A stretch of DNA of 42,741 bases from a virus. The notes under the pieces were generated by a model. That model was not told the origin of the DNA. It saw only the letters and a program-made list of their open reading frames with translations, and did not search any database. Made by a program: the position numbers and the translations under genes. Position 1 is the first letter of the stretch. Each line of letters begins with the position of its first letter. Positions 1,521 through 42,741 of this stretch are shown here, in pieces. Location of the stretch: the IMG/VR virus record IMGVR_UViG_3300030329_001707, positions 1 through 42,741 of that record, one strand, 5' to 3'.

Positions 1521-1550
1521 TCTTTTTGCTCTTTCTCAATCGAATACCAG

Positions 1551-1578
1551 TTTCCGGCGACACTGTGTCGACCGGGAA
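1551..1578. promoter_or_regulatory. Large palindrome flanked by direct repeats: operator or leader hairpin
   Basis: Arms TTTCCGG-CGACAC and GTGTCG-A-CCGGGAA surround a single central T. The inner 13 bases (1558-1570) are a perfect palindrome; the outer arms match with one bulged A and one position that would be a G-U pair in RNA. The 8-mer AATCGAAT occurs on both sides, at 1538-1545 and 1577-1584. Placed about 25-50 bases after the predicted early start site, it could be an operator for the neighbouring winged-helix protein or a structured 5' leader element. Confidence 0.5.
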
Positions 1579-1584
1579 TCGAAT

Positions 1585-1614
1585 GCTATCTGCGTTGATT
1601 CAGGTGGCTCTGAG
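1585..1614 (+). repeat. Inverted repeat arm A (left of the Zn-ribbon gene)
   Basis: A 30-base arm starting GCTATCTGCG and ending CTCTGAG. It pairs with 1985-2014: 27 Watson-Crick pairs, two G-U pairs and one A-C mismatch. It ends 14 bases before the ATG at 1629. The outer ten bases and last seven bases are shared with arm B (2373-2401); the middle differs and matches only its own partner. Confidence 0.85.
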
Positions 1615-1628
1615 AATGAGAGCAAGCC

Positions 1629-1976
1629 ATGCCTAGAGTATCCGCGACATCACCTGAACTAGATCGCCATCATGAGAATGGCGGTGATCTGGAAATCACT
1701 TCAAGTATCGACATGTGCCGCATCTGCTGGTCCGACTGTGACCAGATGACGATGATGGAATTCAAGGATCGGAATAAGCATTGGTCAGCCACTAGATTCC
1801 TCAATCATTTCAGTTACTGGCCTCTGGGTAATGAACCTTGGAAGACCGGCATCATCATGACGGACAATGGGAATTGTGATGGAGAACCACATCCTGATTA
1901 CGAAGAAGAGTCTGAGTCTGGCAACCCCTACTGCTGCGAAGTATGCGGCGAACCACTGACCTCTGAAGACAACTGA
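1629..1976 (+). CDS. Zinc-ribbon-like small early protein
   Basis: 115 residues from the ATG at 1629. Two cysteine pairs, CRIC (about residue 30) and CEVC followed by GEPL (about residue 103), with extra Cys at DCDQ and CC, are typical of a structural zinc site. Between them is an aromatic, acidic stretch with no recognised fold. It is the first gene after the early promoter and is enclosed by inverted-repeat arms A and A'. The stop sits in a CTGAACCA context that recurs after the next two genes. No function is known; short Zn-binding phage proteins are often host-takeover factors, but that is only a general expectation. Confidence 0.7.
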   Translation: MPRVSATSPELDRHHENGGDLEITSSIDMCRICWSDCDQMTMMEFKDRNKHWSATRFLNHFSYWPLGNEPWKTGIIMTDNGNCDGEPHPDYEEESESGNPYCCEVCGEPLTSEDN

Positions 1977-1984
1977 ACCACCAA

Positions 1985-2014
1985 CCCAGAGCCGCCTGAA
2001 TCAGCGCAGATAGC
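1985..2014 (+). repeat. Inverted repeat arm A' (right of the Zn-ribbon gene)
   Basis: Starts 8 bases after the TGA at 1976. It runs from CCCAGAG to CGCAGATAGC and is the reverse complement of 1585-1614 with three exceptions, two of which are G-U compatible. Its last 12 bases (2003-2014, AGCGCAGATAGC) are also a perfect complement of 2373-2384 inside arm B, so it has two possible partners. Confidence 0.85.
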
Positions 2015-2021
2015 CGACCCC

Positions 2022-2051
2022 TGCAATGCTTGAGATTGGGGATTGTCCTGG
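2022..2051 (+). repeat. Inverted repeat arm C (left of the 83-residue gene)
   Basis: A 30-base arm beginning TGCAATGCTTGAG and ending TTGTCCTGG. It pairs with 2339-2368 through 25 Watson-Crick and three G-U pairs. Its sequence is unrelated to arms A and B, yet it takes the same position relative to its gene. It lies 26 bases before the ATG at 2078. Confidence 0.8.
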
Positions 2052-2077
2052 TACTTGAAGCTACGAGGAGAATGCCC

Positions 2078-2329
2078 ATGAATTATGAAGTAAAAGAAGC
2101 TATCGCTGATTACCTCAGAGATAACGAACACATGCACAGGCCAACATCAGAAGACCCCGCCAAACCCGACTGGGAGTTCAGCGATGAGATCTGGGAGAAA
2201 GTCTGCGACGCGATCATCGAAGAGATGGCAGATTCATTTGAACACGACATCGAGGTTCTGGTCTCCGACTACTGCAACAGACACTCAGGATCAATTGATG
2301 GAATCATAGAAGAGCAAACCCGCAACTGA
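2078..2329 (+). CDS. Small acidic early protein, unknown
   Basis: 83 residues. The ATG at 2078 is chosen because GAGGAG ends eight bases upstream and because the frame upstream of it lies in inverted-repeat arm C; a longer version from 2030 would translate the repeat. The protein is mostly helical by composition and very acidic (IWEKVCDAIIEEMADSFEHD, IIEEQTRN). No family is recognised. It is bracketed by arms C and C' and, further out, by complementary segments of A' and B. Confidence 0.65.
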   Translation: MNYEVKEAIADYLRDNEHMHRPTSEDPAKPDWEFSDEIWEKVCDAIIEEMADSFEHDIEVLVSDYCNRHSGSIDGIIEEQTRN

Positions 2330-2338
2330 ACCACACCG

Positions 2339-2368
2339 CCAGGACTATCTCCAATCTTGAGCATTGCT
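2339..2368 (+). repeat. Inverted repeat arm C' (right of the 83-residue gene)
   Basis: Begins 9 bases after the TGA at 2329 with CCAGGAC and ends GAGCATTGCT. It is the complement of 2022-2051 at 25 of 30 positions, and three of the five exceptions remain G-U pairs in RNA. Arm B follows after four bases. Confidence 0.8.
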
Positions 2369-2372
2369 AAAC

Positions 2373-2401
2373 GCTATCTGCGCTTATTGGGTCACTCTGA
2401 G
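2373..2401 (+). repeat. Inverted repeat arm B (left of the 176-residue gene)
   Basis: A 29-base arm with the same GCTATCTGCG beginning and CTCTGAG end as arm A, but a different middle. It pairs with 2957-2985 at 28 of 29 positions. It ends 14 bases before the ATG at 2416, the same distance as arm A from its start codon. Confidence 0.85.
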
Positions 2402-2415
2402 AAATGGAGAATGCC

Positions 2416-2946
2416 ATGAACAGAAAAAACATGAGCGAAAGAGACCTGTGCATCTTCGAGAGAATCGAGAGAGACTTCGAGAATGTCGGGCAGCATGCGA
2501 TACTGAGTCAAGCTGACCAATTCGTATATGCATTGAACATTCCACTGTACTCTGACGATGAGAATGACGAAGACCACGACATCACGGCCACGCTGCTGAT
2601 GAGGTATCTGCCGAATTTCAATACTTGGGTGGTACACGATCACACCACGCATACGGATTTACCGATGCATTGCCTACAAGCCGTATTCGTGAACCACTAC
2701 CTTACTGACACCAAGGATGAGGCACAGGAAAACGAATGGACAATCAAGATGATGTTCTTCCTTGGACCACCATTGCCCACCTCGGGCAGGGCCAAAGTGA
2801 AAGTGAAGTCTGTTGAATTCGACATCTCGCCAGACAGGCGGAGGATTACGACTTCAAACATTCCGAATGCATGGTGGATTGATACTCACAATATCCCCAG
2901 CTATTACGACGATCTGGGAGTCCAGCCAGCCATTACCCACTTCTGA
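2416..2946 (+). CDS. Hypothetical early protein between inverted repeats B and B'
   Basis: 176 residues from the ATG at 2416. An ATG four codons upstream is possible, but the leader TGGAGAATGCC-ATG aligns with those of the preceding genes and places the ribosome site at a sensible distance from 2416. The protein has a charged helical start (SERDLCIFERIERDFENVG), an acidic segment (SDDENDEDHD) and a beta-rich, aromatic C-terminal half. No family recognised. The stop lies in the recurrent CTGAACCA context and arm B' begins ten bases later. Confidence 0.65.
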   Translation: MNRKNMSERDLCIFERIERDFENVGQHAILSQADQFVYALNIPLYSDDENDEDHDITATLLMRYLPNFNTWVVHDHTTHTDLPMHCLQAVFVNHYLTDTKDEAQENEWTIKMMFFLGPPLPTSGRAKVKVKSVEFDISPDRRRITTSNIPNAWWIDTHNIPSYYDDLGVQPAITHF

Positions 2947-2956
2947 ACCATCAAAC

Positions 2957-2985
2957 CCCAGAGTGACCCAATAAGCGCAGATAGC
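2957..2985 (+). repeat. Inverted repeat arm B' (right of the 176-residue gene)
   Basis: Runs CCCAGAGTG to CGCAGATAGC and complements 2373-2401 at 28 of 29 positions. The single mismatch (A-C at the second base) is at the same place as one of the mismatches in A/A'. It starts ten bases after the TGA at 2946. Confidence 0.85.
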
Positions 2986-3014
2986 AAACACACTCTCGAA
3001 TCAGGAGCGCGACA

Positions 3015-3230
3015 ATGGAAGTATGCATGATGGAGCGGATAGAACGCTTGATCTACAGACTGAACAAGGAGCAGATCACCGAACATGAATTTGAAATTCG
3101 GTGGCGGGACCTGCGAATCGAAACGCTGCAATGTGAGATTCAGAAGCTGAACATCACAATCAACGGACTAGACAATCTGGTCGATAGCTTGCAGGATCGG
3201 CTCGCTCAGAAGGAGTCAGACAATGCTTGA
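3015..3230 (+). CDS. Small coiled-coil protein
   Basis: 71 residues; AGGAG lies eight bases before the ATG at 3015. Apart from the first few residues it is one long charged helix with heptad spacing of Leu/Ile (ERLIYRLNKEQITEHEFEIR, LNITINGLDNLVDSLQDRL), so a dimeric coiled coil is likely. Its end overlaps the start of the next membrane microprotein (ATGCTTGA), which implies coupled translation. A partner role for that membrane peptide is possible. No family assigned. Confidence 0.65.
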   Translation: MEVCMMERIERLIYRLNKEQITEHEFEIRWRDLRIETLQCEIQKLNITINGLDNLVDSLQDRLAQKESDNA

Positions 3231-3324
3231 AGATGCACTGTTCATCATTTCATGGATGGGAATCATTGTAATGCTGTGGCTGACAATCTCAGCCGTAATC
3301 GTGACATTCAGGAAACCGAAATAA
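3223..3324 (+). CDS. 33-residue single-span membrane microprotein
   Basis: Begins at the ATG at 3223 inside the stop of the coiled-coil gene (ATGCTTGA overlap), with AAGGAG eight bases upstream, and stops at the TAA at 3322. It has an acidic start (MLEDA), one continuous hydrophobic helix (LFIISWMGIIVMLWLTISAV) and a basic end (TFRKPK), so the C-terminus should be cytoplasmic. The good ribosome site, translational coupling and following hairpin all support a real gene. Its job is unknown; early membrane microproteins of phages often modify the host envelope. Confidence 0.6.
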   Translation: MLEDALFIISWMGIIVMLWLTISAVIVTFRKPK

Positions 3325-3336
3325 GCCAGGGCAATC

Positions 3337-3362
3337 GGGGGGCCTCAATTCTGAGGCCTTCC
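3337..3362 (+). terminator. Intergenic hairpin (terminator or attenuator without U tract)
   Basis: GGCCTCA (3341-3347) and TGAGGCC (3352-3358) form a perfect stem with an ATTC loop, extended by GGGG/TTCC to 11 pairs. Only two T follow before CCC, so it is a poor intrinsic terminator and may instead mark RNA processing or partial termination between the membrane peptide gene and the next gene. Confidence 0.5.
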
Positions 3363-3395
3363 CGAATGTCCACATTCAATGGAGGCCAAGCAAGT

Positions 3396-3620
3396 ATGGA
3401 GTTTGAAGCAAGCGTACATGAACGCCCATCTAGACCTTGCCCATGTGGCAGTGGAGAACCTAGCTGGTGGATGACCGATTGCCAAGGAATCGAGTTGTGC
3501 CGGGTATGTTCGACATGCGAAGATAAAGCAATGAAGAAATACACTCCAGAAACTTTCAGTGGATACAATCAAGCTGATCTGGACGAGTGGACCGGGGAAC
3601 GAATAGAACCCCTAGACTGA
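3396..3620 (+). CDS. Small cysteine-rich protein, CxC/CxxC type
   Basis: 74 residues from the ATG at 3396, which has GGAGG ten bases upstream; longer versions would translate through the hairpin at 3337-3362. The sequence has CPCGSG, then WWMTDCQGIELCRVCSTC and an ending like KKYTPETFSGYNQADLDEW. The Cys-rich core plus a 'GYNQADLDE' C-terminus is a recurrent small phage protein I have seen annotated only as hypothetical. The cysteines probably hold zinc. It has its own 5' and 3' hairpins, suggesting an individually tuned message. Confidence 0.7.
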   Translation: MEFEASVHERPSRPCPCGSGEPSWWMTDCQGIELCRVCSTCEDKAMKKYTPETFSGYNQADLDEWTGERIEPLD

Positions 3621-3631
3621 ATCAACCAGAG

Positions 3632-3666
3632 GAGGGGGCATCTCATGGTGGGATGCCTCCCCCTCG
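3632..3666 (+). terminator. GC-rich intergenic hairpin
   Basis: GGGGGCATC pairs with GATGCCTCC (one G-U), with further GAGG/CCTC pairing possible. It lies 12 bases after the stop at 3620. No U tract follows (CGCATT), so attenuation or message processing is more likely than full termination. Confidence 0.45.
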
Positions 3667-3690
3667 CATTATCAGAAAGCGAATTGAGAC

Positions 3691-3972
3691 ATGGGACAGG
3701 TAACGAAGAAGAAACTGAACACTTACAGCCACATTGAGAATGGGCAGCAGGCATGCATCATCCTTGTTCTCAATGATGGCGAAACATACAGCGATCTGGA
3801 GGGATGCACGCTCCAGATCCTAGCTGAAGAGGAAGCCGACAAGCTGATGAATGGGGCTAACCTGAAAGACATTCCGACACTGGAGACAGTCCCAATCGAC
3901 CATCTCATTCATCAAGTACAGAACCAGACCAAAGCTGAAGACGACGATGGAAAGGATGAAGGCGAAGAATAG
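3691..3972 (+). CDS. Hypothetical acidic early protein
   Basis: 93 residues from the ATG at 3691. A basic start (GQVTKKKLNTYSH) leads into a compact alpha/beta-like core (ACIILVLNDGETYSDLEGCT, LQILAEEEADKL) and a disordered acidic tail (KAEDDDGKDEGEE). The ribosome site is weak. No family recognised. It stands alone between two hairpin regions rather than overlapping its neighbours, unlike the genes after 4554. Confidence 0.6.
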   Translation: MGQVTKKKLNTYSHIENGQQACIILVLNDGETYSDLEGCTLQILAEEEADKLMNGANLKDIPTLETVPIDHLIHQVQNQTKAEDDDGKDEGEE

Positions 3973-3984
3973 CATTCTCCCCAT

Positions 3985-4026
3985 GGCTTGGTGGTTCAAG
4001 CCAACCCTTCCCCGCAAGGGGAGGGG
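3985..4026 (+). terminator. Tandem hairpins, second with GNRA tetraloop
   Basis: First stem GGCTTG (3985-3990)/CAAGCC (3997-4002). Second stem CCCTTCCCC (4005-4013)/GGGGAGGG (4018-4025) closed by GCAA, a GNRA tetraloop, with one bulged T. They fill the gap between two genes and precede a strong AAGGAGG ribosome site at about 4044. Without a U tract they look like RNA stability or attenuation elements. Confidence 0.5.
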
Positions 4027-4057
4027 CTACTTGGATCATTAGATAAGGAGGATTCCA

Positions 4058-4510
4058 ATGCGTGACATTCACGTTGCACTGGTCAAAACCAGTGGCGAAG
4101 TAGAAGACAAGACCATAAGCAATCAGGGAAGTCTGGAGTATTTGCAGGGGTGGGTGGACGGCTACATTGAAGTAGTATCTCATCCTGAATTCGACATGAT
4201 CATCAATGAGGAGGGACGCATCAACAAGCTGCCGATCAACATGACCGCAACTATGCTCCTCAGAGGCCTGCGAGAAATCAACATGGTGACCTCAACAATG
4301 GAATGGGGCAGGATGAAGATGAGCAAGCCACCAGTAGACACGATGCAGGCCCTAGAGACCTATGAGAATGGGCAAACAATCATTCATGGCGATGTCGTCA
4401 TATGTGGGCCAGTAGATCAACATGGATATGAAACAAGCATAAAGGAGGCAGTCAGAAGAAGCATTCCAAGGCTATGGACAGAACCGCACTTTGAAGTAAC
4501 CGTATTTTGA
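4058..4510 (+). CDS. DUF3846-like early protein
   Basis: 150 residues, with AAGGAGG and good spacing before the ATG at 4058. The order YLQGWVDGYIEVV, then IINEEGRINKLPINMTAT and near the end GDVVICG is the pattern I associate with DUF3846 proteins of phages and plasmids (function unknown; shorter, usually 100-130 residues, with a conserved 'NE.g...lp.N..A' and 'i.Gd.vi'). Here the middle carries an additional helical stretch (LLRGLREINMVTSTMEWGRM). The assignment rests on motif memory, not an alignment. Confidence 0.6.
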   Translation: MRDIHVALVKTSGEVEDKTISNQGSLEYLQGWVDGYIEVVSHPEFDMIINEEGRINKLPINMTATMLLRGLREINMVTSTMEWGRMKMSKPPVDTMQALETYENGQTIIHGDVVICGPVDQHGYETSIKEAVRRSIPRLWTEPHFEVTVF

Positions 4511-5279: not shown

Positions 5280-5485
5280 TCAAGCTAGACGGATGGACAA
5301 TGGGATTCATTGATGCAACACAGGGTTGGGGGCAATATGCCCCTGACCTTGTGCTGTGTTCTCGCGTATACCGCGAGAAATACACGAAAGGGTACATGGA
5401 TGGACGATTTCAAGTTAGGCTGCGAAGTATCACCGAAAGAAAGCATAGCCGTTCAGGTGATAGGGCCAGCAGGCGCGGGTATTGA
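5276..5485 (+). CDS. Small early protein overlapping the next gene
   Basis: 69 residues, starting in ATGA overlap with the upstream gene. The first 45 residues look protein-like (WTMGFIDATQGWGQYAPDLV, YREKYTKGYMDGR), while the last 28, in the 86-base overlap with the following gene, are Arg/Ser-rich with little character. Either the overlap is real, or the tail is tolerated read-through into the next gene. A perfect 8-bp hairpin (5359-5379) sits in this gene just before the next start. Confidence 0.5.
   Translation: MIKLDGWTMGFIDATQGWGQYAPDLVLCSRVYREKYTKGYMDGRFQVRLRSITERKHSRSGDRASRRGY
5359..5379 (+). promoter_or_regulatory. Perfect 8-bp hairpin before an internal start codon
   Basis: TTCTCGCG and CGCGAGAA with a TATAC loop, inside one gene and 20 bases ahead of the ATG at 5400 of the next. 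It could hold back initiation at 5400 until ribosomes translating the upstream gene open it. Confidence 0.35.
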
Positions 5486-5921: not shown

Positions 5922-6103
5922 GCGATGGATATTTCGCAGAAGCAAGGCCGAATCTTGGCAGAATTGAACACGACGTAGTGCAGGTGGACATCCACAGTAG
6001 GCCCGACATGGTTGTGAAAGCAAACATAACTATTGAGGAAGCCAAGAAGCTGGCATCCCAACTGCAAAGCGCAATAGATTTCTTTGAATCGAGGACAACA
6101 TGA
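5918..6103 (+). CDS. Small hypothetical protein
   Basis: 61 residues with ATGA overlaps at both ends, so translationally coupled. Two parts: a beta-like start (RIEHDVVQVDIHSRPDMVVK) and one amphipathic helix (IEEAKKLASQLQSAIDFFES). This strand-strand-helix order is seen in many small phage and toxin-antitoxin-like proteins but carries no diagnostic residue. Function unknown. Confidence 0.6.
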   Translation: MSDGYFAEARPNLGRIEHDVVQVDIHSRPDMVVKANITIEEAKKLASQLQSAIDFFESRTT

Positions 6104-6453
6104 GAGAAAGATTACCAGCAACATATCCAGAGGACGAGCAATACAACATCAGGCAGAAGTGGGGAGACATCAATTGCAGGGAACGGATCTCTGCTGTTTT
6201 CAATGAATGCCTGGACGATTACGATGATTCTCCGGATCTGGCATATGGGAGCGAACAAGTGATGATATGCACGGATCTTCTGAGTGATGCATGGAATGAA
6301 ATGTCGGCCATGCACACTGAAACGGTCAATTGGAGATGCGCATGGGCCAAGCTAGAGGGGCTGCTGAGCAAGCCGGACCTTCTTGGAATCAATGACGGAT
6401 CAGCAGACGTGATACTGGCGCACATGCGATCAATCAAAGACAAGATGAAGTAG
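6100..6453 (+). CDS. Hypothetical protein, last gene of the rightward operon
   Basis: 117 residues. Helical, with several Trp and Cys (WGDINCRERISAVFNECLDD, NEMSAMHTETVNWRCAWAKL). Nothing identifies a family. Coupled to the upstream gene by ATGA and followed after 24 bases by the operon terminator. A short helical hypothetical at an operon end gives no safe functional hint. Confidence 0.6.
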   Translation: MRERLPATYPEDEQYNIRQKWGDINCRERISAVFNECLDDYDDSPDLAYGSEQVMICTDLLSDAWNEMSAMHTETVNWRCAWAKLEGLLSKPDLLGINDGSADVILAHMRSIKDKMK

Positions 6454-11872: not shown

Positions 11873-14800
11873 TTATTCTGGTAATTCAAGCAATCCAGCC
11901 CTGTCAACCTCATCCACATAATCCCAAAAGCCTTCTGCAATTCTTGTTTCCCAATATAATTGAGCTTTATCATACATTCTTTCTTGCTCAGGGGTAATTT
12001 GAGACATATAAGCTTGTTTTTGCTCATCATTCAAAGCACCCAAAGGATGAAGATACTTAATAGATTGATTTCTAGCCGCAACCATATCTTCGCCGCTTTC
12101 AAAGGTCATTGCATAATCCAAAAAGGCTGTTGCAAATTCATGTTTATCTTCATACCATTGAGCTTCTCTCATTCTTCGCAAAGCGTCAGGTCTTGCACCT
12201 GATTGATTAATTGAATGAGTTCTAGTAATGCCATTTTCATCCATCCATTCGCTAACTTCATTTCTAGTAAGTTGATAAGCGGCTCTATTAGGCTCAATCG
12301 CATTAGCCATTCTCTTGGTCCATTGATCTTTAAAAGATCTATCTGGAGCATCCATAATCCATCTGCTTGCAGATTCCAGAGACCAAATCTTGGCCATAGC
12401 ATGAATTCTTTGCTCTGGAGTCATAACTTTGCCTTCAAAGACATTTGGGAAAGTATCAATTCCAGCGGCAGCAAGAGGCATTTTCCATGCCGGGCCTACC
12501 ATATCCCAATAGTTTTGAAAAGTCTGTTTTGCAGATTTTTGAACCTCTTTTTGGAATTCAATATCTTCTCCTCTTAGATATTTTTCAGCTGTCCAGGCTG
12601 CTGAACCCAAACCAATAGTTTCATAAAAATCTTGAATGGTTCCAGTCCTATTGAAGTAAAGAGCATTTCCTTCTTCATCCCTGCCCAATATTACATAATT
12701 CCCACGCTTTACATGCTCTGGAACATCATCAATCAAATCTGCATGGTATTCCTCATTCCACCAATAATGCAATAGTTCTTCAGCAAGCAGAACTCCAGCA
12801 ACACCAGCCAATGCTCCAAGCAAGCTCCTGCCAATGCCGGCAGCAGCAGGAATGGGAGTGTATTTAAGCAAAGGCATCTTATTCATGAAATCATAAGTCA
12901 TTCTTCCTTTTGCTATAGCCATCAAGAATTTGTTATGAATTGCTTTCGCATATGCTTTCATATTACTTTCTCTAAATGACCAGAAAGGAATAAGAGATTG
13001 CCGTCCGTGCTGTCCAAGCTGACTAATATCTCCATAAGCACCAAGAAGATCATCAGACATCTTGAATGCTTTATCTTCATTTTTTTCAATAGCACGAATT
13101 TCTTTTCGACCAGATGCGCCTAGTCGAGTTATGTTTCCGTTGTTTTTCCTAGCATGTTTAAGGTAATAGGTGTATGCCGAAAATCTCATAAGGGCTTCAC
13201 GGAATTCGGTAAACTTAGTAACCGTATTCCAATAGATTCTAAATGGCATAGTCGGAACACCCTTGGTAAAGTCCCAAGCACCACGGTTCCTTAATGCCTT
13301 AAGTTTCTTAAGATTGGTTTTGTTAGCAAGATTTTGCAATTCAATTCTACTAGGCAAAGATCTTAATCCACCCTTTTTCTTCCAATAAGCAGCATCAGCA
13401 CTAGCTTTTTCGGGATTCAAAAACAACAAAGTTAATTGCCAAGCAGCTTCCGGCAAATTCATCATAACGCCGGGTTCAATGATTGCAACTTTACCAACTT
13501 CAGTCATATTTCTAATATTGTAAGAAGCTGCAGCGATAGGATTCAAAAGAGTCCATCGCCTCCAAGCACTTGTAACTTTATCAAGGCCTCGTATGATTAT
13601 TGAACGAGTGTCTTTATCAGATCTTGCTTTGGCTTTTCTTGCTTCAGTATCTAGCTGCTTGACAATTCTTTCTGGCAAAACTTCAGGATCATACTGCTTG
13701 CCCTGGGCCATTACTTCTTGCAAAGCATTGGCGGGAATAGACATTTCTTTCTGCTCAAGTAGTTCATATGCAATTTGATCACTAAGAGCAAACGCTTTAT
13801 ACATAGGAGCAAGTTCGTCACGAAGCCTATATTCGGTATAGCCTTCAGGAATCAAATCTCTCCATGTGACATACTCTCCTCGACTTCTTGCGCCCTGAGC
13901 AATAGCAGCACGTTTCTCAGCAGTACCCTTGAAAATTGTTGCAGCACCCAATTTTGCCAATTCATGAGTAGATTCCGTACCAACTTCAATATCGCTTTGC
14001 TTCATAATCCAACTCATATATTGGTAAAGCAATGGCATTTCTTTTTCCCCAAGAGAAAGAGAGCTAAGAGTAAATTCTTCCATATCTCCCTCTTGAATTG
14101 ATTTCATTTTTGCTTGAATGGCCGCATCTTCCAAGACTTCAAACCATTCAAAAGGAGCTTTAGGCGCATCCCCTGTGGCAAGAGCATTAATAATAGTGCT
14201 AAAACCAATGGCAGTCTTCCTTCCCACCCGACCCAGGAATGTGTCTATCATATCTGGAGTAGGATTTTCGTTAGGAGCCAACCCAAAATCAGCAGCAACA
14301 GCAGCTTGAATATTCATCTGAGTAGCTTGCTTTTTAAGAGTTTCAATAATGCCTTCTTTCTTTCTGATTTCTCCAATGATTCTCATTGTTTCAATATCAG
14401 TAAGAACCTGCTGAAGAACAGAAAACTCAGCTTGATGATAGTTTGCATTAATAGCTTCTTCAGATCCAGTTCTTTGCCTCAAATACCCTCTTTGAGTAGG
14501 CATTGACAAAGGCTTGGCATCTGCAAAAGATTTAGACTTTTTATTAGCATGCTTCAAAACCATATGAGGGAAGTAGTCTTTTCTTGTTAGCTTGCTATCT
14601 GCTGATTTCCATCCTGCTTCTTTTGCCTGATGAATATAAGAGTCACGAACAACACCCCAAGCATAATTCCTGTATTTGATGGCTGCCTTAATCGATTCAT
14701 TGCCAGCAACATATTCATTTACAGTAGATGACCATTGAGTAAGTTCTTCTTCTGTTACACCCCAAGGAAGTCCGATTTCAGGATCTTCTTCCCTCATTGC

Positions 14801-17800
14801 AATAAAGTCATCAATAATTACTTTCTGAGTAAAGATTTGATAATCTTTATTATTCATCATTTTCGCAGTTCTAACAATAATATCAATCGCCTCGTCTACT
14901 GATTTGGCTCTTGATTGGCTTAGATCTCTAAGAAGATTCCTGATTTCTCCATAACGACCCTGTGGCAAATGTTCAAAATTGCCTCTAGTAATTAATCGTT
15001 TAACAAACTCAGATCCCATTTTGATTGAATCAATAACGGTTCTGGTTTTACCTACGCCCTGGCCTGACCTTTTATATTCATCTCGGAACCTTTCAGGAAC
15101 CATATTTATCGGAGAACGATTTCCAACAGATGGCTTTCTATCATCTCCAACCATGTCAACCGCACTTCTAACAGGATCAGTAACCTCGCCTCTAGGCCCA
15201 ATTACAGAACCCGGCTTGCCAGTTGCCCCCATAGCATCGAATGGCCGAGGATGCAGCAATGCAGAAACACTAGCAGCACCACCCCCGCCTCCAGTCATAG
15301 GTCTATTATCCACCGAAGACATCACTGTTCCTGTATATGAAACAGGCTTAGTCATGTTATATATTTTTTGCATAGCTCTGAAAGATTCTTGAGGATCTTG
15401 AGGAAGATGAGCAATATTCTTTGTCCCTCTTGTCCTATGTGGAAGACCCAGCATATCTCTAGTTCCAGAATCCATTTCACTAGTTGCCGACGCCATTACA
15501 ACAATAAAATTCTGCTCATCCATTTTTCTGGTACGAATAATGAATCCATTAGCAAAACGGATAAGTTTGGCTGCACCTGACCTGAGATTATCTAAAGCCA
15601 TCTGAGGATCCAAAATGCCCGCAGGCAAATCGAATGCCTTTCCTGCATCCTCCATTAGCTGGTTTGCTTTAGTTTTATTTACTTCAAGACCAAGAATTTG
15701 TTCGCCATCATTGGTGACAGCTCTTCTAATTTTAAAATTCTTCCTGTCAAACCTAGTCCAATGCTGAAGCAAAGCACCAGTAACAATGTAATGAGAATCC
15801 ATTTGAGTTCCAGGTTCCTGAGAATCAAACATATTCTTGGCTTCTGCTTCATCTAGCCTTCTGAATTTTTCAGGATTATCAATACTAGCTGCGACAATTT
15901 TTCTGCGTTGAGATAAAACAAGAGGGCCTTGCAAAATGTACTGATCTTGATATCTACCGCCTACAATTTCAGTCTTTTTATTGACTATCATATATGGCGT
16001 ATTATTTTGAAGATCAAGAACAGCACCAAACCTAGTTTTACGGTACTCCCTAAGAACAGGCTCAGATTCAACTTCCAACTTAACCATACGAAGATCTGAC
16101 CCTTTGTCTTCCTGGCTGATAATAATGTCATCAGTTTTGACAATAGAAATACCGGGAATTTCCTGCATTCCTACATCCAAAGTTCCTTCTTCTCTTTGTT
16201 TCTGGTCAATAAGTTCCCAGTTTTGATTGAATTCCTCCATAATCATATCCTGTCTTTCAGGAGGAAGCATCATTACCCTATTCATAAATTGGCCAACATT
16301 AGGAAGAGCCTTTTTAAGATCTCCCTCTGGAGTTGTAATCTTCAACCCCATGTTGTTTTCCAAATAATCTATATCAAACGGAGGAACTTTGTTGTTATGA
16401 ATATCTTTAAACAACTGTTGCAGAGCGGCCCTTCCGTTATCAGAATCCAAATTGGATCTTGCATCAAATACAGATCCACCACTTGCAGACCTAGAACCAC
16501 GGGTCAAAGCACCCATTTGCTCCAGCTTTTTAATAATTGCTGAAGTAAAACGCTTTTCCCCTTCGACATTTGTATTTACCACTTTGACAATAGGCGCGCT
16601 AGTCTGATTAGACCTGTGCGTTCTACCCAATGCCTGGACTGTTGTATCGGCTCTCCAGTCGGGCTGGAACATATAATGAACACGCCTACGCTGGTTAGCA
16701 AAACTTTTTTCAGCAGAATAAGTTTTGCCTGTTGCTCCTGCATTAGAAAAAACTAGTGCATAAACCTGACCTGAAGTAAATCTTTTCTCTTCGACTTCAT
16801 TAGCTTTAGAGCCTCTCTTTTGAAGCCTTGCAACTCCTTCTTCATCAAAGACTCTTCTTTCTGTTCTGCCTGTAATTTCAGCTATGCCATCTTCACCAAA
16901 CTCTTGAATAATATAATCGAGAGCATTCTGTGGGAAAGACATATCCGCTATTTCAGACATTAGCATGTCTCTTCTTCTTAAAGCAGAAGGATCAACAACA
17001 GGATTTCCGCTAGAATCTTCGACCTTTCTAACTATTTCCCTTCCATCTTGATCTTCAACTACTTCCATTCGATGGATGGGGAAAGACTTTTCAACGTAGT
17101 CCATGAAAATATCTTTCATAGACATTTCAAGATCAGTTTCTTCTAATCCAGCTTCCTTGGCAGCAAGTCTCTTAGATTTAGCCTGAGATTCTCCAGTATT
17201 TGTAAGCTGAATTACAACAGCATTACCATTTTCTAATTCCCGCTTGGCATCAGCTACCAAAGCCGGAGCTTTAAGCCCATTGATAAATTGCTGGAAAAAC
17301 CTCAAAGTTGTTCCATAAAAAGTGGAAGCAACATTTCCCCTGGCCTTAGAAAGATTTTTATCACCTACCTGATCTCTAAGCACATCCTCCATCACACTCA
17401 TTACCTTGCCCCATTGATCAGAAATATTGGTATACATTTCCTCTTCTTGTGGAGTCAAGTTATGAACGATAGGATCTCGGACTTCAACGTCTTGCATTGA
17501 AATTGTTCTTGCCAAATAAAGGCCTCTAGCCTTAAGGTCTTGAGCAACAATTTCTAGTCCAGACATACCAGCAGCAGTAATATTGTCAAAGAATTGTGAC
17601 ATATTTGCAAACTGAGTTCCTGTTCCCCACAAACCCATTCTTGCGCCAGCATAAGCAAGATTGTTTAAGGTAGTAGCCCCTGTAGCGGAAAGATATGTAA
17701 CCCTAGCATTTTCAAATCTATTGGTAAACGAAACTCCAGCAATACCCTGTTTTGATGCCTTGATAGCACCCCTTGCGCCTTTGGTTTCTGTAGCATTCCC

Positions 17801-20800
17801 CATCATGTGAGATTCGTCAAACAGGATTGGTCCATCAAAATCAATTACTGGTTTCCCCGTGCCTGCTTCGATTTCCAACCAGCGATAAACCTGAGATAGT
17901 CTTGGGGATGTTTTTTTCGCATCATCCCAAGCCCGGCCCATAATTCCATAAGTCATTACAACAACACCTTCAAAATCAGAAGGTATTTGATCATCTTTTT
18001 TGGTTTCACTAATTGAAAGAACCTTGACATTAGGATCAAGTTCTTCAAAAAGATCTTTAAAATCTTTTACAAGGCTTTCGTTTTTAGTAACTAGTACAGA
18101 TTTCTTTCTTCCTTTGTAAAAGTTGTCTAGAATAATTCCAGCAACAATTCTACTTTTACCTACACCAGTACCATCTCCACAGAAAAATCCTTGTCGAGTA
18201 CCATTGGGAAAAACAGTTTCATGGGCGGCAGAAGCGAGAGCAACAGCTTCTATTTGAACATCAGAAATACTTCCGTCTTTAACAATTTTATTTGGCACTT
18301 TAACATCGGCCTCAACAGGAGGAGGAGCAATAGCCGACATTGCTTTGCTTTCTACAAGCGTACCAGGATGCTGCTTTGAATCCTTAACTTCTACATTAGG
18401 CTTATATACACGAAATGCCCCTTGATCATCTTTCAAAGCAGCTTCTCTATTAGCATATAACGTGTCAATTCTGGATCTTACTGATGTAGCATCCGGCTTA
18501 TTTGCATTTGGAGCAGTAGAAATATCTAGAGGTTGCTCTCCAGATGGCTCAGTAGAAACTGGCTCGCCTCGTCCGGCGGCAGGCTGTTCAACTCCTTCAG
18601 CAGGAACTTGCGCTCCTCCCTCGGGAATAGCTTTTTCTGGAGCCGGCTCTGGTCTTGCTTGTCCTGGTATTCCCTCAGTAGGTTCTGCAACAACCCCAAC
18701 TCCCCTTCCCTCCCCGGTGATGCTTGCAGGTTCTCCAGCCCCCAATTCGCCAGTTTGAGGCTCGACAATACCTGCGTCTGGCTGGACTCTTCCTTCCGGT
18801 CTAGCTTGTCCAGATGGTTCCGGCACTGCCTCTCCAGTGGGTCGTCCCACCACTTCGGCAGATTCAGTTTGGGTTTCGATAGTTTTTTCGGCACCTAATT
18901 GCTCCCTTTTCAATGGATTATCAGATTTAACTTGCAATGGATTTGATTTAAACGGAAAATTGCCTATAGATTCCCATTGTGGTACGGTCATTTTATTGAT
19001 TGGAATATCTTCCAATTTTTGACCCGTAGCAACTTTGTCAATAACCATTACATTGGTATTGAACTTTGTTCCCATACTGGAATACGCTTTGCCAGGAATC
19101 TGAAAAATTGACTTAATCGTTGCATTTTCCAACGTCTTTTCAAACCATTCTTTATGGGCTTTAGATGTTGGAAGCATTCCACCACTTCCTCGCATTCCGC
19201 CCCCGACAATGGCAACTACTCGTCCACCATCCTGAACGGCATTCAAAGCAGCAGTAACATGCCTGCCTCCTGTATGAATGTCCCTTTTAGTGCTTTTGTC
19301 TCCCCGTCTAGAAAACGGAGGATTCATTACAACAACACTAGGCTTTTCCGAACCCATAACTTTTTCCAGCAAAGCATCAATATGCTCTGCATCTTCTTTA
19401 GTTACAGACTTAAGAGATGCCCTAAATTCAGGCGTAGAAATTTCTCCGCCAATAAAATCTTCAATTAACTTTGCACGGGCAGGGTCAATTTCATTAGCGT
19501 AAACACTAATTTCACCAGGCGCCTTAGATATTGCAGCAGAAACCAAAGCACCTGTGCCAGCACTTGGCTCAAGAACAATATCTCCAGGACTAATAAGTGA
19601 TAAATCTGCTACAAAATTAGCAAGTTTGGGAGGCGTACTAAACTGCTGAAACGCAATCTGTTCTTCTGATCTTGCTGTTTGCGGATCAATACTGTCAGCA
19701 GCTTCTGGTCTTTGCTCTTGAAAATAAACACGATTCTGATGAGCTTCAACAATGTCAGAAGCTTCTCTGGGCTTGTAATCCTCACCCATAGTCTCTCTAG
19801 CCCATTGCCTAATATCTTTTTGCGAAACATCAGAATCTTTAATCGCCTCACGAACTCGACCAGCCAATGGATAAGACAAGTCTATAACTGATTGCAGAGA
19901 TTTTTCTGCTTCTACTTCATCTATTTGCTTTTGTTTTTCAGCTTCTTTTTCAGCATGCCATTTTTGTAAAAATTCCCTACCTTCTCTAACCGCGGTTACT
20001 ATGTCATGCTCAGTTTTTTCCCCATACGGCTTGTCAATTACCTCTTGCCTCTCCTCTTCAGTAATTGGCCTCTTGTCTTCTTCAAAGTATTTTTCATTTT
20101 CTGCTTTTTCCAAAGCTTTACGCTCAATGCGCCTGACTCGATTAACTGCATTTTCAAGATAAGCTTGTTCAATCAATTCTTCCCGAGAAAAATCTGTTCT
20201 GTCAGGATTTAATTTTTCCAAATTAAATTGTGCGCCTTCAAGATCGCCTTCTTCTAGCTCTTCTTTTCTTGCTTCCTCTATAAATTTATCAAGATTAGCT
20301 CTTGCTTTACTAGACTCTTGAATAAATTCTTTTGCAAATTTATCTCCCAATTTATCAGCGCGTTCTGCAATCTCGCTGTCTCTAAAATCCAAAGCCGCTC
20401 CCGGAATTGATTCTGAAAGAGGGCGGAATTTATAAGAAGATTGAGCCGTTGGCTCTGCCACAGGCTCCGCCATATCCGATTGCTTGCGGTTTATTTCTTC
20501 ACGGGATGTGATTGTATTCGTATCTGTATCAATCATAGCACCGGGGAAAAGATCACTTGGTATATATCTTTCTTGTGGTGCTGCGGGATCTGGATCTTGC
20601 TTGGCTTGTTCCACCTCACTTTCTTTTCTGGCTTTATCAACAGCATCAACGTCAAGACCCATATTCCTAGCAATTTCTTTGGTGATATCAGCTTCGGTAA
20701 TATCTGCTTCTGAAGCAAATTGACCACTATGAAGCAAAGATTCAATAGCATCTTCTTTAGCAGAAGTGCTTTCTACAGGAGTCTTTGTTTCAGCAAGAGG

Positions 20801-22834
20801 TTCGCTAACAGCACTAGGCGGAGCAGGTGGTTTTGCAGATTCGGTTTTAGGAGCCGGAACAACATCGGGTTTGGAAGCAGGAACAGCTTCAGGTTTAACA
20901 ATTGGAGCAGCTTCTTCGGGAGTAACAACAACCTTTGCATCCTGGACTTCAGGCTCAGTCTTATCTTTTTGGGGCTGTTCAGCAACACTATCTTCTCTTC
21001 TGCGTCCACCTACCCACGTTCGCTGACGAGGAGGAGGCGCAGGTTCAAGACCAACAACTTGCTCGGTTGCTCTTGCTGCTTCAGCCGCTTGTTCTTTAAG
21101 ACTAGTTTTTGCTCCCCCTGGTTGAGTTCTGGGAGCAATAGTTATAAGGCGATCTGCTTGCAACCAAACATCAAGGTTAACTGTTGCCGGAATTTTAAAG
21201 TGTTCAGCAAGCTGTTCCGAAGTAAGTCCTGTAAGACCTTCCTTCTTCCTGTATGCATTAACTTCTCTTAGGAATCTTCCAGAATATTGCGCCCACTTAA
21301 TTGCAGCATCGTATTCAAGCTGCAATTCTTTAAGTTCCCTTCGAGACATCTTTGACGGATCTTTCCCGCCAAGAAAGTTTTGGTCTCTAGGTCCAGGTCT
21401 AGACGTTAGAATTTCTATAGCACGCTTTGTATCAATTTCTACACGGCCAGTTTTGAATGTCCTACCTCTAAAACCCAAAGACAAAAGTGATAGCATTGCA
21501 AGATTTTGGACTTCCTGATCCCATGTGCCAATTAATTCATGGCCTTCCATATAACCAAGCTGCTGCAATCCCGCTTCAACACCTTTAAGGCTGACATAAC
21601 CAGTAGCTCCACCAACAGCGGATGCAGGAATAGTAGATAGAATATGGGCTTGAGCGGCTTTATCTCCTGCTCTTACAGCATCAGCATAAGCCTTAGATCC
21701 TCTTCGCACACCAGTTCCAACAATATAAGAACCGGGAACAGCGAAACCAATAAACTCTCCACTAGCCACTTGGTTAGGATGCAGATCTCTAGATGTGGCA
21801 AACTTTTCAGCAAGTTCAGAATGTTGCTCTGCAAGATCAAGAACCTCATCCATAGTCCAACTAGCTACCATAGAAGCAACTACACCACCAGCAGTCGTGC
21901 CAACATGCTCTACAAATGGGCCAATAAGAGGTATGCGGCCTACAAGTGGACGCAAAGCTTTTCCAGTAAGTTTTGCTCCAAGAGGAAATGCAGCAAAGGA
22001 AGTTGCCCCTTTAGAAATACCCCATGTATATGCAAAACCTGGAACAGCTTGAATGATTTTCAATTCTTCTTCAGTGAAATTGGTATTTTGAAACGCTTCC
22101 CAATCAGCAGCATCTGAAAGAAGCTCCTCAGCATCTTCAGGAGACATGACCTCATCTTGAACAGCAAGCCTGACCGCTGATTCAAATCTATTAGGATCTA
22201 TTTGTATTTCAGGTCCATGCATTCGATAAGGCTTATCGCCTTCATCAAAAAGATATGGCTGCATTTCTTTAATTTGAACAATTCTTTCCAAAGGCCACAA
22301 TGGACTATCGGAAAAATCTTGGCCCAAACCAATAGAGTTTTCCCATTCAAGTGCAGCAGCATCCATTTCTTCAGTAGAAAGATTTCCAAGCCTTGCGTTT
22401 ACATACCTCTCTGCCCTTTTACGTTCTTCTACTCCAGCAAAATTGGAGTACAAATCGTTAATTCGGTATTGGGAATAAAGCCTTGGATTTTTATATGGAT
22501 CAGATCCGCCAGTTTCATTAAACCATTTCTTCGATGAATCGGGAGAAAACAAATCTTCAGCTTCGTACTTTACTGACCATTGGGCATGAGCAGAAGTATC
22601 CGTACCGCCAAACAGAACATCAGACAACGAGCCAACAGACTCCTCCGAAGACTTGCCTTTAGCATAAGAAAAACCTCGAGAATAAACATCGGCCAAAATC
22701 TGATTAGAATCTCTTGTAATAGACGGACTTTCTTGAGTGTCTACAAGAGTTTCATTTTGGCTTGAAACGATTTGTTCTTTAGGATCTTCTTCTTTAAAGA
22801 TATCGAAGAAATCATTAACGCTACTGGTTGTCAC
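11873..22834 (-). CDS. Giant polyvalent protein: DNA methyltransferase + Strawberry-notch helicase + large C-terminal region
   Basis: 3653 residues from a GTG at 22834 (GGAG seven bases upstream, 14-base overlap with the previous gene); an earlier start at 22870 would add 12 residues. Residues up to about 480: mixed region with Gly/Ala-rich hydrophobic stretches (GPFVEHVGTTAGGVVASMVA). About 640-800: Pro/acidic linker. About 1050-1250: N6-adenine-type methyltransferase with EPSAGTGAL and NPPF. About 1330-1450: Pro/Gly/Glu linker. About 1530-2150: superfamily 2 helicase with DGTGVGKSR (Walker A), LFDESHMM, YLSATGATT and QALGRTHRSNQ, the last diagnostic of Strawberry-notch helicases. About 3000-3653: helical region with membrane-like segments and a conserved-looking end. 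Comparable multidomain proteins (DarB of P1, 'polyvalent proteins') are ejected with phage DNA and counter restriction. It occupies a quarter of the genome. Virion location is inferred from its neighbours. Confidence 0.85.
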   Translation of the reverse strand: MTTSSVNDFFDIFKEEDPKEQIVSSQNETLVDTQESPSITRDSNQILADVYSRGFSYAKGKSSEESVGSLSDVLFGGTDTSAHAQWSVKYEAEDLFSPDSSKKWFNETGGSDPYKNPRLYSQYRINDLYSNFAGVEERKRAERYVNARLGNLSTEEMDAAALEWENSIGLGQDFSDSPLWPLERIVQIKEMQPYLFDEGDKPYRMHGPEIQIDPNRFESAVRLAVQDEVMSPEDAEELLSDAADWEAFQNTNFTEEELKIIQAVPGFAYTWGISKGATSFAAFPLGAKLTGKALRPLVGRIPLIGPFVEHVGTTAGGVVASMVASWTMDEVLDLAEQHSELAEKFATSRDLHPNQVASGEFIGFAVPGSYIVGTGVRRGSKAYADAVRAGDKAAQAHILSTIPASAVGGATGYVSLKGVEAGLQQLGYMEGHELIGTWDQEVQNLAMLSLLSLGFRGRTFKTGRVEIDTKRAIEILTSRPGPRDQNFLGGKDPSKMSRRELKELQLEYDAAIKWAQYSGRFLREVNAYRKKEGLTGLTSEQLAEHFKIPATVNLDVWLQADRLITIAPRTQPGGAKTSLKEQAAEAARATEQVVGLEPAPPPRQRTWVGGRRREDSVAEQPQKDKTEPEVQDAKVVVTPEEAAPIVKPEAVPASKPDVVPAPKTESAKPPAPPSAVSEPLAETKTPVESTSAKEDAIESLLHSGQFASEADITEADITKEIARNMGLDVDAVDKARKESEVEQAKQDPDPAAPQERYIPSDLFPGAMIDTDTNTITSREEINRKQSDMAEPVAEPTAQSSYKFRPLSESIPGAALDFRDSEIAERADKLGDKFAKEFIQESSKARANLDKFIEEARKEELEEGDLEGAQFNLEKLNPDRTDFSREELIEQAYLENAVNRVRRIERKALEKAENEKYFEEDKRPITEEERQEVIDKPYGEKTEHDIVTAVREGREFLQKWHAEKEAEKQKQIDEVEAEKSLQSVIDLSYPLAGRVREAIKDSDVSQKDIRQWARETMGEDYKPREASDIVEAHQNRVYFQEQRPEAADSIDPQTARSEEQIAFQQFSTPPKLANFVADLSLISPGDIVLEPSAGTGALVSAAISKAPGEISVYANEIDPARAKLIEDFIGGEISTPEFRASLKSVTKEDAEHIDALLEKVMGSEKPSVVVMNPPFSRRGDKSTKRDIHTGGRHVTAALNAVQDGGRVVAIVGGGMRGSGGMLPTSKAHKEWFEKTLENATIKSIFQIPGKAYSSMGTKFNTNVMVIDKVATGQKLEDIPINKMTVPQWESIGNFPFKSNPLQVKSDNPLKREQLGAEKTIETQTESAEVVGRPTGEAVPEPSGQARPEGRVQPDAGIVEPQTGELGAGEPASITGEGRGVGVVAEPTEGIPGQARPEPAPEKAIPEGGAQVPAEGVEQPAAGRGEPVSTEPSGEQPLDISTAPNANKPDATSVRSRIDTLYANREAALKDDQGAFRVYKPNVEVKDSKQHPGTLVESKAMSAIAPPPVEADVKVPNKIVKDGSISDVQIEAVALASAAHETVFPNGTRQGFFCGDGTGVGKSRIVAGIILDNFYKGRKKSVLVTKNESLVKDFKDLFEELDPNVKVLSISETKKDDQIPSDFEGVVVMTYGIMGRAWDDAKKTSPRLSQVYRWLEIEAGTGKPVIDFDGPILFDESHMMGNATETKGARGAIKASKQGIAGVSFTNRFENARVTYLSATGATTLNNLAYAGARMGLWGTGTQFANMSQFFDNITAAGMSGLEIVAQDLKARGLYLARTISMQDVEVRDPIVHNLTPQEEEMYTNISDQWGKVMSVMEDVLRDQVGDKNLSKARGNVASTFYGTTLRFFQQFINGLKAPALVADAKRELENGNAVVIQLTNTGESQAKSKRLAAKEAGLEETDLEMSMKDIFMDYVEKSFPIHRMEVVEDQDGREIVRKVEDSSGNPVVDPSALRRRDMLMSEIADMSFPQNALDYIIQEFGEDGIAEITGRTERRVFDEEGVARLQKRGSKANEVEEKRFTSGQVYALVFSNAGATGKTYSAEKSFANQRRRVHYMFQPDWRADTTVQALGRTHRSNQTSAPIVKVVNTNVEGEKRFTSAIIKKLEQMGALTRGSRSASGGSVFDARSNLDSDNGRAALQQLFKDIHNNKVPPFDIDYLENNMGLKITTPEGDLKKALPNVGQFMNRVMMLPPERQDMIMEEFNQNWELIDQKQREEGTLDVGMQEIPGISIVKTDDIIISQEDKGSDLRMVKLEVESEPVLREYRKTRFGAVLDLQNNTPYMIVNKKTEIVGGRYQDQYILQGPLVLSQRRKIVAASIDNPEKFRRLDEAEAKNMFDSQEPGTQMDSHYIVTGALLQHWTRFDRKNFKIRRAVTNDGEQILGLEVNKTKANQLMEDAGKAFDLPAGILDPQMALDNLRSGAAKLIRFANGFIIRTRKMDEQNFIVVMASATSEMDSGTRDMLGLPHRTRGTKNIAHLPQDPQESFRAMQKIYNMTKPVSYTGTVMSSVDNRPMTGGGGGAASVSALLHPRPFDAMGATGKPGSVIGPRGEVTDPVRSAVDMVGDDRKPSVGNRSPINMVPERFRDEYKRSGQGVGKTRTVIDSIKMGSEFVKRLITRGNFEHLPQGRYGEIRNLLRDLSQSRAKSVDEAIDIIVRTAKMMNNKDYQIFTQKVIIDDFIAMREEDPEIGLPWGVTEEELTQWSSTVNEYVAGNESIKAAIKYRNYAWGVVRDSYIHQAKEAGWKSADSKLTRKDYFPHMVLKHANKKSKSFADAKPLSMPTQRGYLRQRTGSEEAINANYHQAEFSVLQQVLTDIETMRIIGEIRKKEGIIETLKKQATQMNIQAAVAADFGLAPNENPTPDMIDTFLGRVGRKTAIGFSTIINALATGDAPKAPFEWFEVLEDAAIQAKMKSIQEGDMEEFTLSSLSLGEKEMPLLYQYMSWIMKQSDIEVGTESTHELAKLGAATIFKGTAEKRAAIAQGARSRGEYVTWRDLIPEGYTEYRLRDELAPMYKAFALSDQIAYELLEQKEMSIPANALQEVMAQGKQYDPEVLPERIVKQLDTEARKAKARSDKDTRSIIIRGLDKVTSAWRRWTLLNPIAAASYNIRNMTEVGKVAIIEPGVMMNLPEAAWQLTLLFLNPEKASADAAYWKKKGGLRSLPSRIELQNLANKTNLKKLKALRNRGAWDFTKGVPTMPFRIYWNTVTKFTEFREALMRFSAYTYYLKHARKNNGNITRLGASGRKEIRAIEKNEDKAFKMSDDLLGAYGDISQLGQHGRQSLIPFWSFRESNMKAYAKAIHNKFLMAIAKGRMTYDFMNKMPLLKYTPIPAAAGIGRSLLGALAGVAGVLLAEELLHYWWNEEYHADLIDDVPEHVKRGNYVILGRDEEGNALYFNRTGTIQDFYETIGLGSAAWTAEKYLRGEDIEFQKEVQKSAKQTFQNYWDMVGPAWKMPLAAAGIDTFPNVFEGKVMTPEQRIHAMAKIWSLESASRWIMDAPDRSFKDQWTKRMANAIEPNRAAYQLTRNEVSEWMDENGITRTHSINQSGARPDALRRMREAQWYEDKHEFATAFLDYAMTFESGEDMVAARNQSIKYLHPLGALNDEQKQAYMSQITPEQERMYDKAQLYWETRIAEGFWDYVDEVDRAGLLELPE

Positions 22835-42361: not shown

Positions 42362-42741
42362 TATTCTTTAACATCCTTTTTGGAATCAAATTTAGGATCC
42401 ATAATATGGTCCAAGACCTTTTTAACTGATCCTGGAGTCAGATTTTCTTCCGGAACCTGATATTTGATATAGTTTCCACGATTTTCCAGCCTACGTTTAA
42501 CCTTCCATTTCATCCAAGCAACACCACAGACGTAGGCAACTCCGACAATAGCTAGAAATCCAAGGCCCAAAGACACGGGCAAAACAAGATTTCCCAAAAC
42601 TTCAAACGCAAATGCGGGTAGAACAGCCAGGGTGAGGCCAACAGCTAAAAGACTAATTGCAGTACCTTTTGCCCCACTAATAAGAGCAACTACCCCGCCC
42701 AAAAGGGCAATAAATCCAACAACCGTAAGGGGCCACAAGAA
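42361..42741 (-). CDS. Lipoprotein-like membrane protein, 3' part (gene begins at 357)
   Basis: The reading frame is open to the right edge and ends at the TAA at 42361-42363. From 42559 to 42741 it duplicates the left end; 42361-42558 supplies the C-terminal 65 codons missing there (SLGLG-FLAIVGVAYVCGVAW, then a Lys/Arg/Asp-rich tail ending KFDSKKDVKE). Joined to 1-357 this yields one 184-residue protein with an N-terminal possible lipobox and three hydrophobic helices. No independent start codon exists in this part, apart from a TTG that is simply internal. Confidence 0.75.
   Translation of the reverse strand, partial: FLWPLTVVGFIALLGGVVALISGAKGTAISLLAVGLTLAVLPAFAFEVLGNLVLPVSLGLGFLAIVGVAYVCGVAWMKWKVKRRLENRGNYIKYQVPEENLTPGSVKKVLDHIMDPKFDSKKDVKE
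42559..42741. repeat. Right copy of contig-terminal direct repeat
   Basis: Matches 1-183 with 12 substitutions, all before position 42665, then 77 identical bases to the end. See the left copy for interpretation. Confidence 0.85.

Follow-up and report, generated by a model that had tools for sequence, protein, structure and literature searches.

Why should three consecutive small genes of a phage each lie inside an inverted repeat of their own, and is the pairing of the arms a matter of the message or of the DNA? The genes belong to the uncultivated phage IMGVR_UViG_3300030329_001707, a single virus record whose entire 42,741 bases form the window analysed here. Its terminase has 18 relatives among viral contigs, its matches to an SU10-type portal and adaptor are both weak, and it encodes a replication-initiation protein, an ERF-like annealing protein and a DUF3799 nuclease of the PD-(D/E)XK class; together the terminase, the weak portal and adaptor matches and the replication and recombination genes indicate that the window is a tailed phage. 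About a quarter of the genome is taken up by a 3665-aa reading frame on the minus strand (11873-22870) with AAA_34 and Strawberry-notch Helicase_C_4 domains. The G+C content, read in 2-kb steps, is ~50% over the first 10 kb and ~40% over most of the remainder. The two ends carry a direct terminal repeat of 183 bases (1-183 and 42559-42741; 93% identity, 171/183), which seems to reflect a circularly permuted or terminally redundant genome with ends from different variants. The bracketed genes stand at the head of a series of small plus-strand genes, across from a divergent gene (1020-1340) whose small protein product shows weak matches to helix-turn-helix.

All three brackets and the genes within them read on the plus strand. 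Arm A (1585-1614) pairs with A' (1985-2014) around gene A (1629-1976; 115 aa, CxxC-rich at its C-terminus), arm C (2022-2051) with C' (2339-2368) around gene C (2078-2329; 83 aa), and arm B (2373-2401) with B' (2957-2985) around gene B (2416-2946; 176 aa from ATG 2416, 180 aa from ATG 2404). A recount gave the same figures as an earlier note on this DNA, i.e. 27 Watson-Crick, 2 G-U and 1 A-C of 30 positions for A/A', 25 Watson-Crick, 3 G-U and 2 U-U of 30 for C/C', and 28 Watson-Crick and 1 A-C of 29 for B/B'. The layout described there was found as well: every pair encloses one reading frame, the start codon lies 14 bases past the left arm in A and in B, with ATG 2416 taken as the start of the latter, and 26 bases past it in C, and the stop codon is separated from the right arm by 8 bases in A, 9 in C and 10 in B. 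As a refinement, the A-C near the inner end of A and B falls outside the helix proper, which comprises 28 bp in A (1585-1612 with 1987-2014) and 27 bp in B (2373-2399 with 2959-2985); in C, positions 2023-2051 pair with 2339-2367. The helices are free of bulges, and their sole interruption is one U-U in C. The common frame reaches beyond the arms, since the spacers are shared too: all three bracketed genes end with CTGAACCAY before the right arm, genes B and C begin alike with GGAGAATGCC(C)ATGAA, and the fifth gene of the run, gene E, ends with CTGAATCAACCAGAG, a near match to the spacer of the bracketed genes. The 15 bases of spacer that follow gene A (TGAACCACCAACCCA, 1974-1988) are also complementary, at 93%, to the loop region of a hairpin behind gene F (3984-3998).

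To ask how exceptional such repeats are, we scanned the whole window for long-range inverted repeats with loops of 60-1500 nt. A, C and B were the only three scoring above 15.5 (in descending order 27.7, 26.1 and 22.6), while 400 first-order shuffles of its sequence yielded at most 19.9 and never 22.6, ruling out a chance origin. The same scan of five phage records (228 kb) gave a maximum of 18.6 and found no panhandle-class repeat in T7, and as a positive control the script recovered the known 16S stem of E. coli rrnB with a score of 25.8. The arms are specific to their own partners, with duplex energies of -56.5, -47.7 and -53.7 kcal/mol as against -11 to -35 kcal/mol with non-cognate ones. 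Equal pairing with other arms, which the earlier note had named as the outcome that would speak against it, was thus not seen: cognate pairing is far stronger (-48 to -57 kcal/mol versus -35 kcal/mol at best).

Conventional signals did not account for the arms. Within the window the arm motif occurs at A, A', B and B' and otherwise as one match with 3 mismatches at 35912, and operator sites for a regulator were rejected on this ground. Neither promoters nor terminators were found at the panhandle boundaries, where a search for intrinsic terminators (a G+C-rich local hairpin followed by a T run) gave no such site. No Rfam family reached its gathering score; the S15 leader (E 0.43) and CRISPR-DR57 (E 0.025) were sub-threshold chance matches.

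The changes that separate the brackets bear on whether pairing matters in RNA. A and B are one frame in two diverged versions, with 23 of 30 aligned pairs unchanged. Among the seven changed pairs, four differ on both sides, two exchange G-U for Watson-Crick or the reverse, one is a paired indel and none is broken, in line with the earlier proposal of a shared frame with mirrored changes. The transition-type exceptions inside the helices (2 in A, 3 in C) read as G-U in the coding-strand RNA in five of five cases, with no A-C, and on the opposite strand the same five would read A-C; under equal odds the one-sided probability of this is 1/32. The bias drops to 5/6 if the A-C that A and B have in common, close to the inner end of the helix, is counted as a mismatch. 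That most exceptions in A and C are G-U compatible, as had been noted, is borne out by five G-U pairs (2 in A, 3 in C), the rest being one A-C and two U-U. Partition-function folds of 1550-3100 and of 1550-4100 gave mean cognate-pair probabilities of 0.999, 0.95 and 0.96, and the bracketed cassettes folded better than shuffles with z of -5.1, -2.95 and -8.3, low values that we take to stem mainly from the brackets. The idea of RNA-selected pairing with the gene as a loop thus finds backing in the compensatory A/B changes, the coding-strand G-U bias and the folding, all drawn from a single genome; on this basis a predicted RNA helix around each gene is well supported, and a role of the helices in RNA moderately so.

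Arms can also be kept matched by mutation itself. Template switching or gene conversion would homogenise them, and the brackets would then be relics of inverted duplication. Inverted repeats are known substrates of template-switch correction, A/A' and B/B' are almost perfect, and with an ERF-like annealing protein and a PD-(D/E)XK nuclease in the phage, recombination could mimic selection. However, there are three independent brackets at like distances from start and stop codons, the exceptions in A and C are G-U on the coding strand, and an arm spacing of 290-560 nt is long for intrastrand switching, and we hold homogenisation to be quite unlikely.

The content of the brackets raises the further question of whether each is a unit of DNA exchange. 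The enclosed proteins are orphans: no family was found for A, B or C in the collections searched. Searches of viral contigs and phage records gave no relative of them or of gene H, and a search of genomes gave none of gene B. The one Pfam hit of gene A, a small cysteine-rich family at E 0.012, fell below the cut-off and was set aside as a chance cysteine match. No similarity was detectable among the three proteins, and common ancestry was rejected accordingly. In one version of a DNA origin, gene and bracket are swapped in together by homologous recombination at the conserved frame; in another they move in a transposition-like way via terminal inverted repeats. Such exchange agrees with unrelated genes inside homologous frames (A/B) and spacers, with the ERF-like and PD-(D/E)XK recombination proteins that the phage encodes, and with the other genes that occupy this region in a sister phage. 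Against it, no transposase or site-specific recombinase was present among the scanned proteins, target-site duplications are absent around A and C and amount to just a 4-base AAAC around B, and the arm pairs are private and mutually diverged, unlike terminal repeats that one enzyme must recognise. Furthermore, no free copy of a bracket was found elsewhere, and a coding-strand G-U bias is unexpected for a DNA element. A MITE or mobile insertion cassette was rejected on the target sites, and cassettes as the whole explanation appear unlikely to us, while the similar brackets around unrelated genes may well have arisen by gene exchange within a conserved frame, a history that an RNA function would not contradict.

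Integron cassettes and attC clusters in phages resemble this locus as arrays of unrelated single genes with a common boundary sequence (PMC9892861), but an attC site folds locally after its gene and has GTTRRRY/RYYYAAC cores. The bracket boundaries carry no GTTRRRY, the single one lying inside gene B (2812-2818), and an integron array was rejected for this reason.

Comparison with relatives set the reach of these tests. The closest sister phage (L005/L039), whose terminase is 75% identical, differs in its early genes and shows no repeat comparable to the brackets; terminase relatives in genomes were not found. Frame patterns searched across 2.9 million viral contigs gave 16 matches without brackets and, separately, one match within an open coding stretch, and weak long-range repeats in two relatives (L010 and L019) were discarded as they overlap reading frames. 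Given that no relative carries these genes and that the sister has others in their place, covariation was judged between paralogous frames of one genome only. It is the lack of a gene-bearing relative, together with a closest sister devoid of brackets, that leaves some weight to a DNA-cassette origin or to homogenisation of the arms. Other repeats were seen among the relatives. In the sister L005, CGGACGCGATCA stands in place of brackets as a direct repeat, one copy at each of two boundaries between early genes (6010-6027 and 6300-6317). Inverted GTAACGCT repeats, possibly origin iterons, surround replication-initiation genes in L044 (10110-10317) and also in L040, L041, L045 and L046. Two copies of a 20-base near-palindrome, AGGTACGGGAAACCGTACCT, lie 540-623 bases from each other in L028 (10430-10990), L030, L034 and L035, which come from different samples.

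Genes enclosed in this way are known from ribosomal RNA. The statement of the earlier note that no described element has this layout was too strong: pre-16S and pre-23S rRNA are likewise enclosed, the rrnB 16S stem recovered above being a case in point, and biology thus has a precedent for the layout. Inverted RNA repeats that form RNase III stems are general in bacterial pre-rRNA, and the stem is cut by RNase III (PMC7038931). As in the bacterial pre-16S and pre-23S stems, each gene of a polycistronic transcript has a private repeat here, the whole gene is the loop and the stem is of similar length; complementary flanks of at least ~20 bp around one gene, which define such stems, are present at three genes with 27-29 paired positions. 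The brackets differ in that they contain reading frames and no structural RNA, in that the arms lie 8-26 nt from start and stop codons of protein-coding genes, and in that RNase III cutting is here a proposal. Archaeal rRNA stems of the bulge-helix-bulge kind are also gene-enclosing inverted repeats (PMC7038931), but have two 3-nt bulges around a short helix, whereas the helices here are bulge-free. Among phages, RNase III sites between the early genes of T7 mature and protect the mRNA (PMC8708148). The R1.1-type sites are, as here, duplexes at early-gene boundaries of a polycistronic phage message; they are local intergenic hairpins, whereas this phage has panhandles plus local hairpins further downstream.

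These downstream hairpins, at the D2/E, E/F and H/I boundaries, are of ~16-18 bp and take the place of brackets in the genes after the trio. Folding placed one upstream of gene E (3329-3371, plus strand; -31.7 kcal/mol, z -5.75) and one after gene E with CTGAATCAACCAGAG in front (3629-3665, plus strand), and a third, between genes H and I (5313-5359), has a terminator-like tail and is stronger than any other local hairpin of the window. A further local hairpin stands in the leader directly upstream of arm A (1550-1579, plus strand; -17.4 kcal/mol, z -2.4). Because the downstream early boundaries carry local hairpins, duplex at cistron boundaries can be regarded as a theme of the operon, which seems to have a duplex at most gene boundaries, as a clasp for the first three genes and as a local hairpin later.

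Together, these comparisons lead us to favour, at a probability of roughly 0.55, RNA-level helices, one per cistron, that would serve rRNA-like processing by RNase III and/or protection of the ends. According to this proposal, the early plus-strand transcript would be polycistronic across A, C and B, and the sequence upstream of each ribosome-binding site would pair in the cell with sequence past the stop codon of the same gene. Three successive helices of 27-30 bp would form, each with one whole cistron inside its loop of ~290-560 nt. Host RNase III would then cut both strands of the helix, yielding monocistronic messages with their ends clipped together or trimmed, and a helix left uncut may shield both ends of its cistron to the benefit of the mRNA. 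RNase III should be able to cut both strands of a near-perfect helix of this length (27-29 bp), and it is this property, with the rRNA stems and the T7 sites, that makes processing or protection by the host enzyme the favoured role; we infer the RNase III step by analogy with those systems. No phage-encoded RNase III was recognisable.

The arms might alternatively govern translation. If the inner end of the left arm hid the Shine-Dalgarno sequence until the 3' arm captured that left arm, only complete messages would be translated. With the 3' arm present, opening the Shine-Dalgarno region is computed to cost 2.1 instead of 5.1 kcal/mol in gene A, 3.5 instead of 11.7 in C and 2.6 instead of 3.8 in B, with no appreciable drop in seven neighbouring genes. 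The leader hairpin, however, beats shuffles for C only (p 0.01, versus 0.46 for A and 0.64 for B), for which reason the left arm was rejected as a general Shine-Dalgarno mask, and ribosomes would normally load before the 3' arm exists; such a switch therefore appears very unlikely to us. We regard as possible, though doubtful, a wider variant in which cistrons would be self-closing: the clasp would be completed after full transcription, so that only complete messages are processed, protected and, at least for gene C, unmasked.

The converse effect, in which the 3' arm closes the message into a stable inactive form as in hok mRNA or S. aureus icaR, has a precedent in icaR, where the 5' and 3' UTRs of one bacterial mRNA pair and thereby create an RNase III substrate (PMC3868564). 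The icaR pairing is short (UCCCCUG) and lies over the Shine-Dalgarno sequence, whereas here 27-30 bp avoid the ribosome site at three successive genes. Since the ribosome site and start codon are outside the helix, the arms stopping 14-26 nt before the start, silencing of the icaR type fits poorly, and the closed form lowers rather than raises the opening costs; we consider it most improbable.

Our search of the open literature gave no description of panhandle or bracketed phage mRNAs, and a clasp around a row of protein-coding phage genes, known around ribosomal RNAs, appears to be new. We regard the brackets as real and unusual, and class them with processing or clasp stems, here applied to protein-coding genes. 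If the helices form, phages would clasp ordinary mRNAs gene by gene, as is done for rRNA, and would have a simple route from a polycistronic transcript to separately stable messages. Inverted repeats that bracket single genes would then constitute a design rule that can be searched for across phage genomes.
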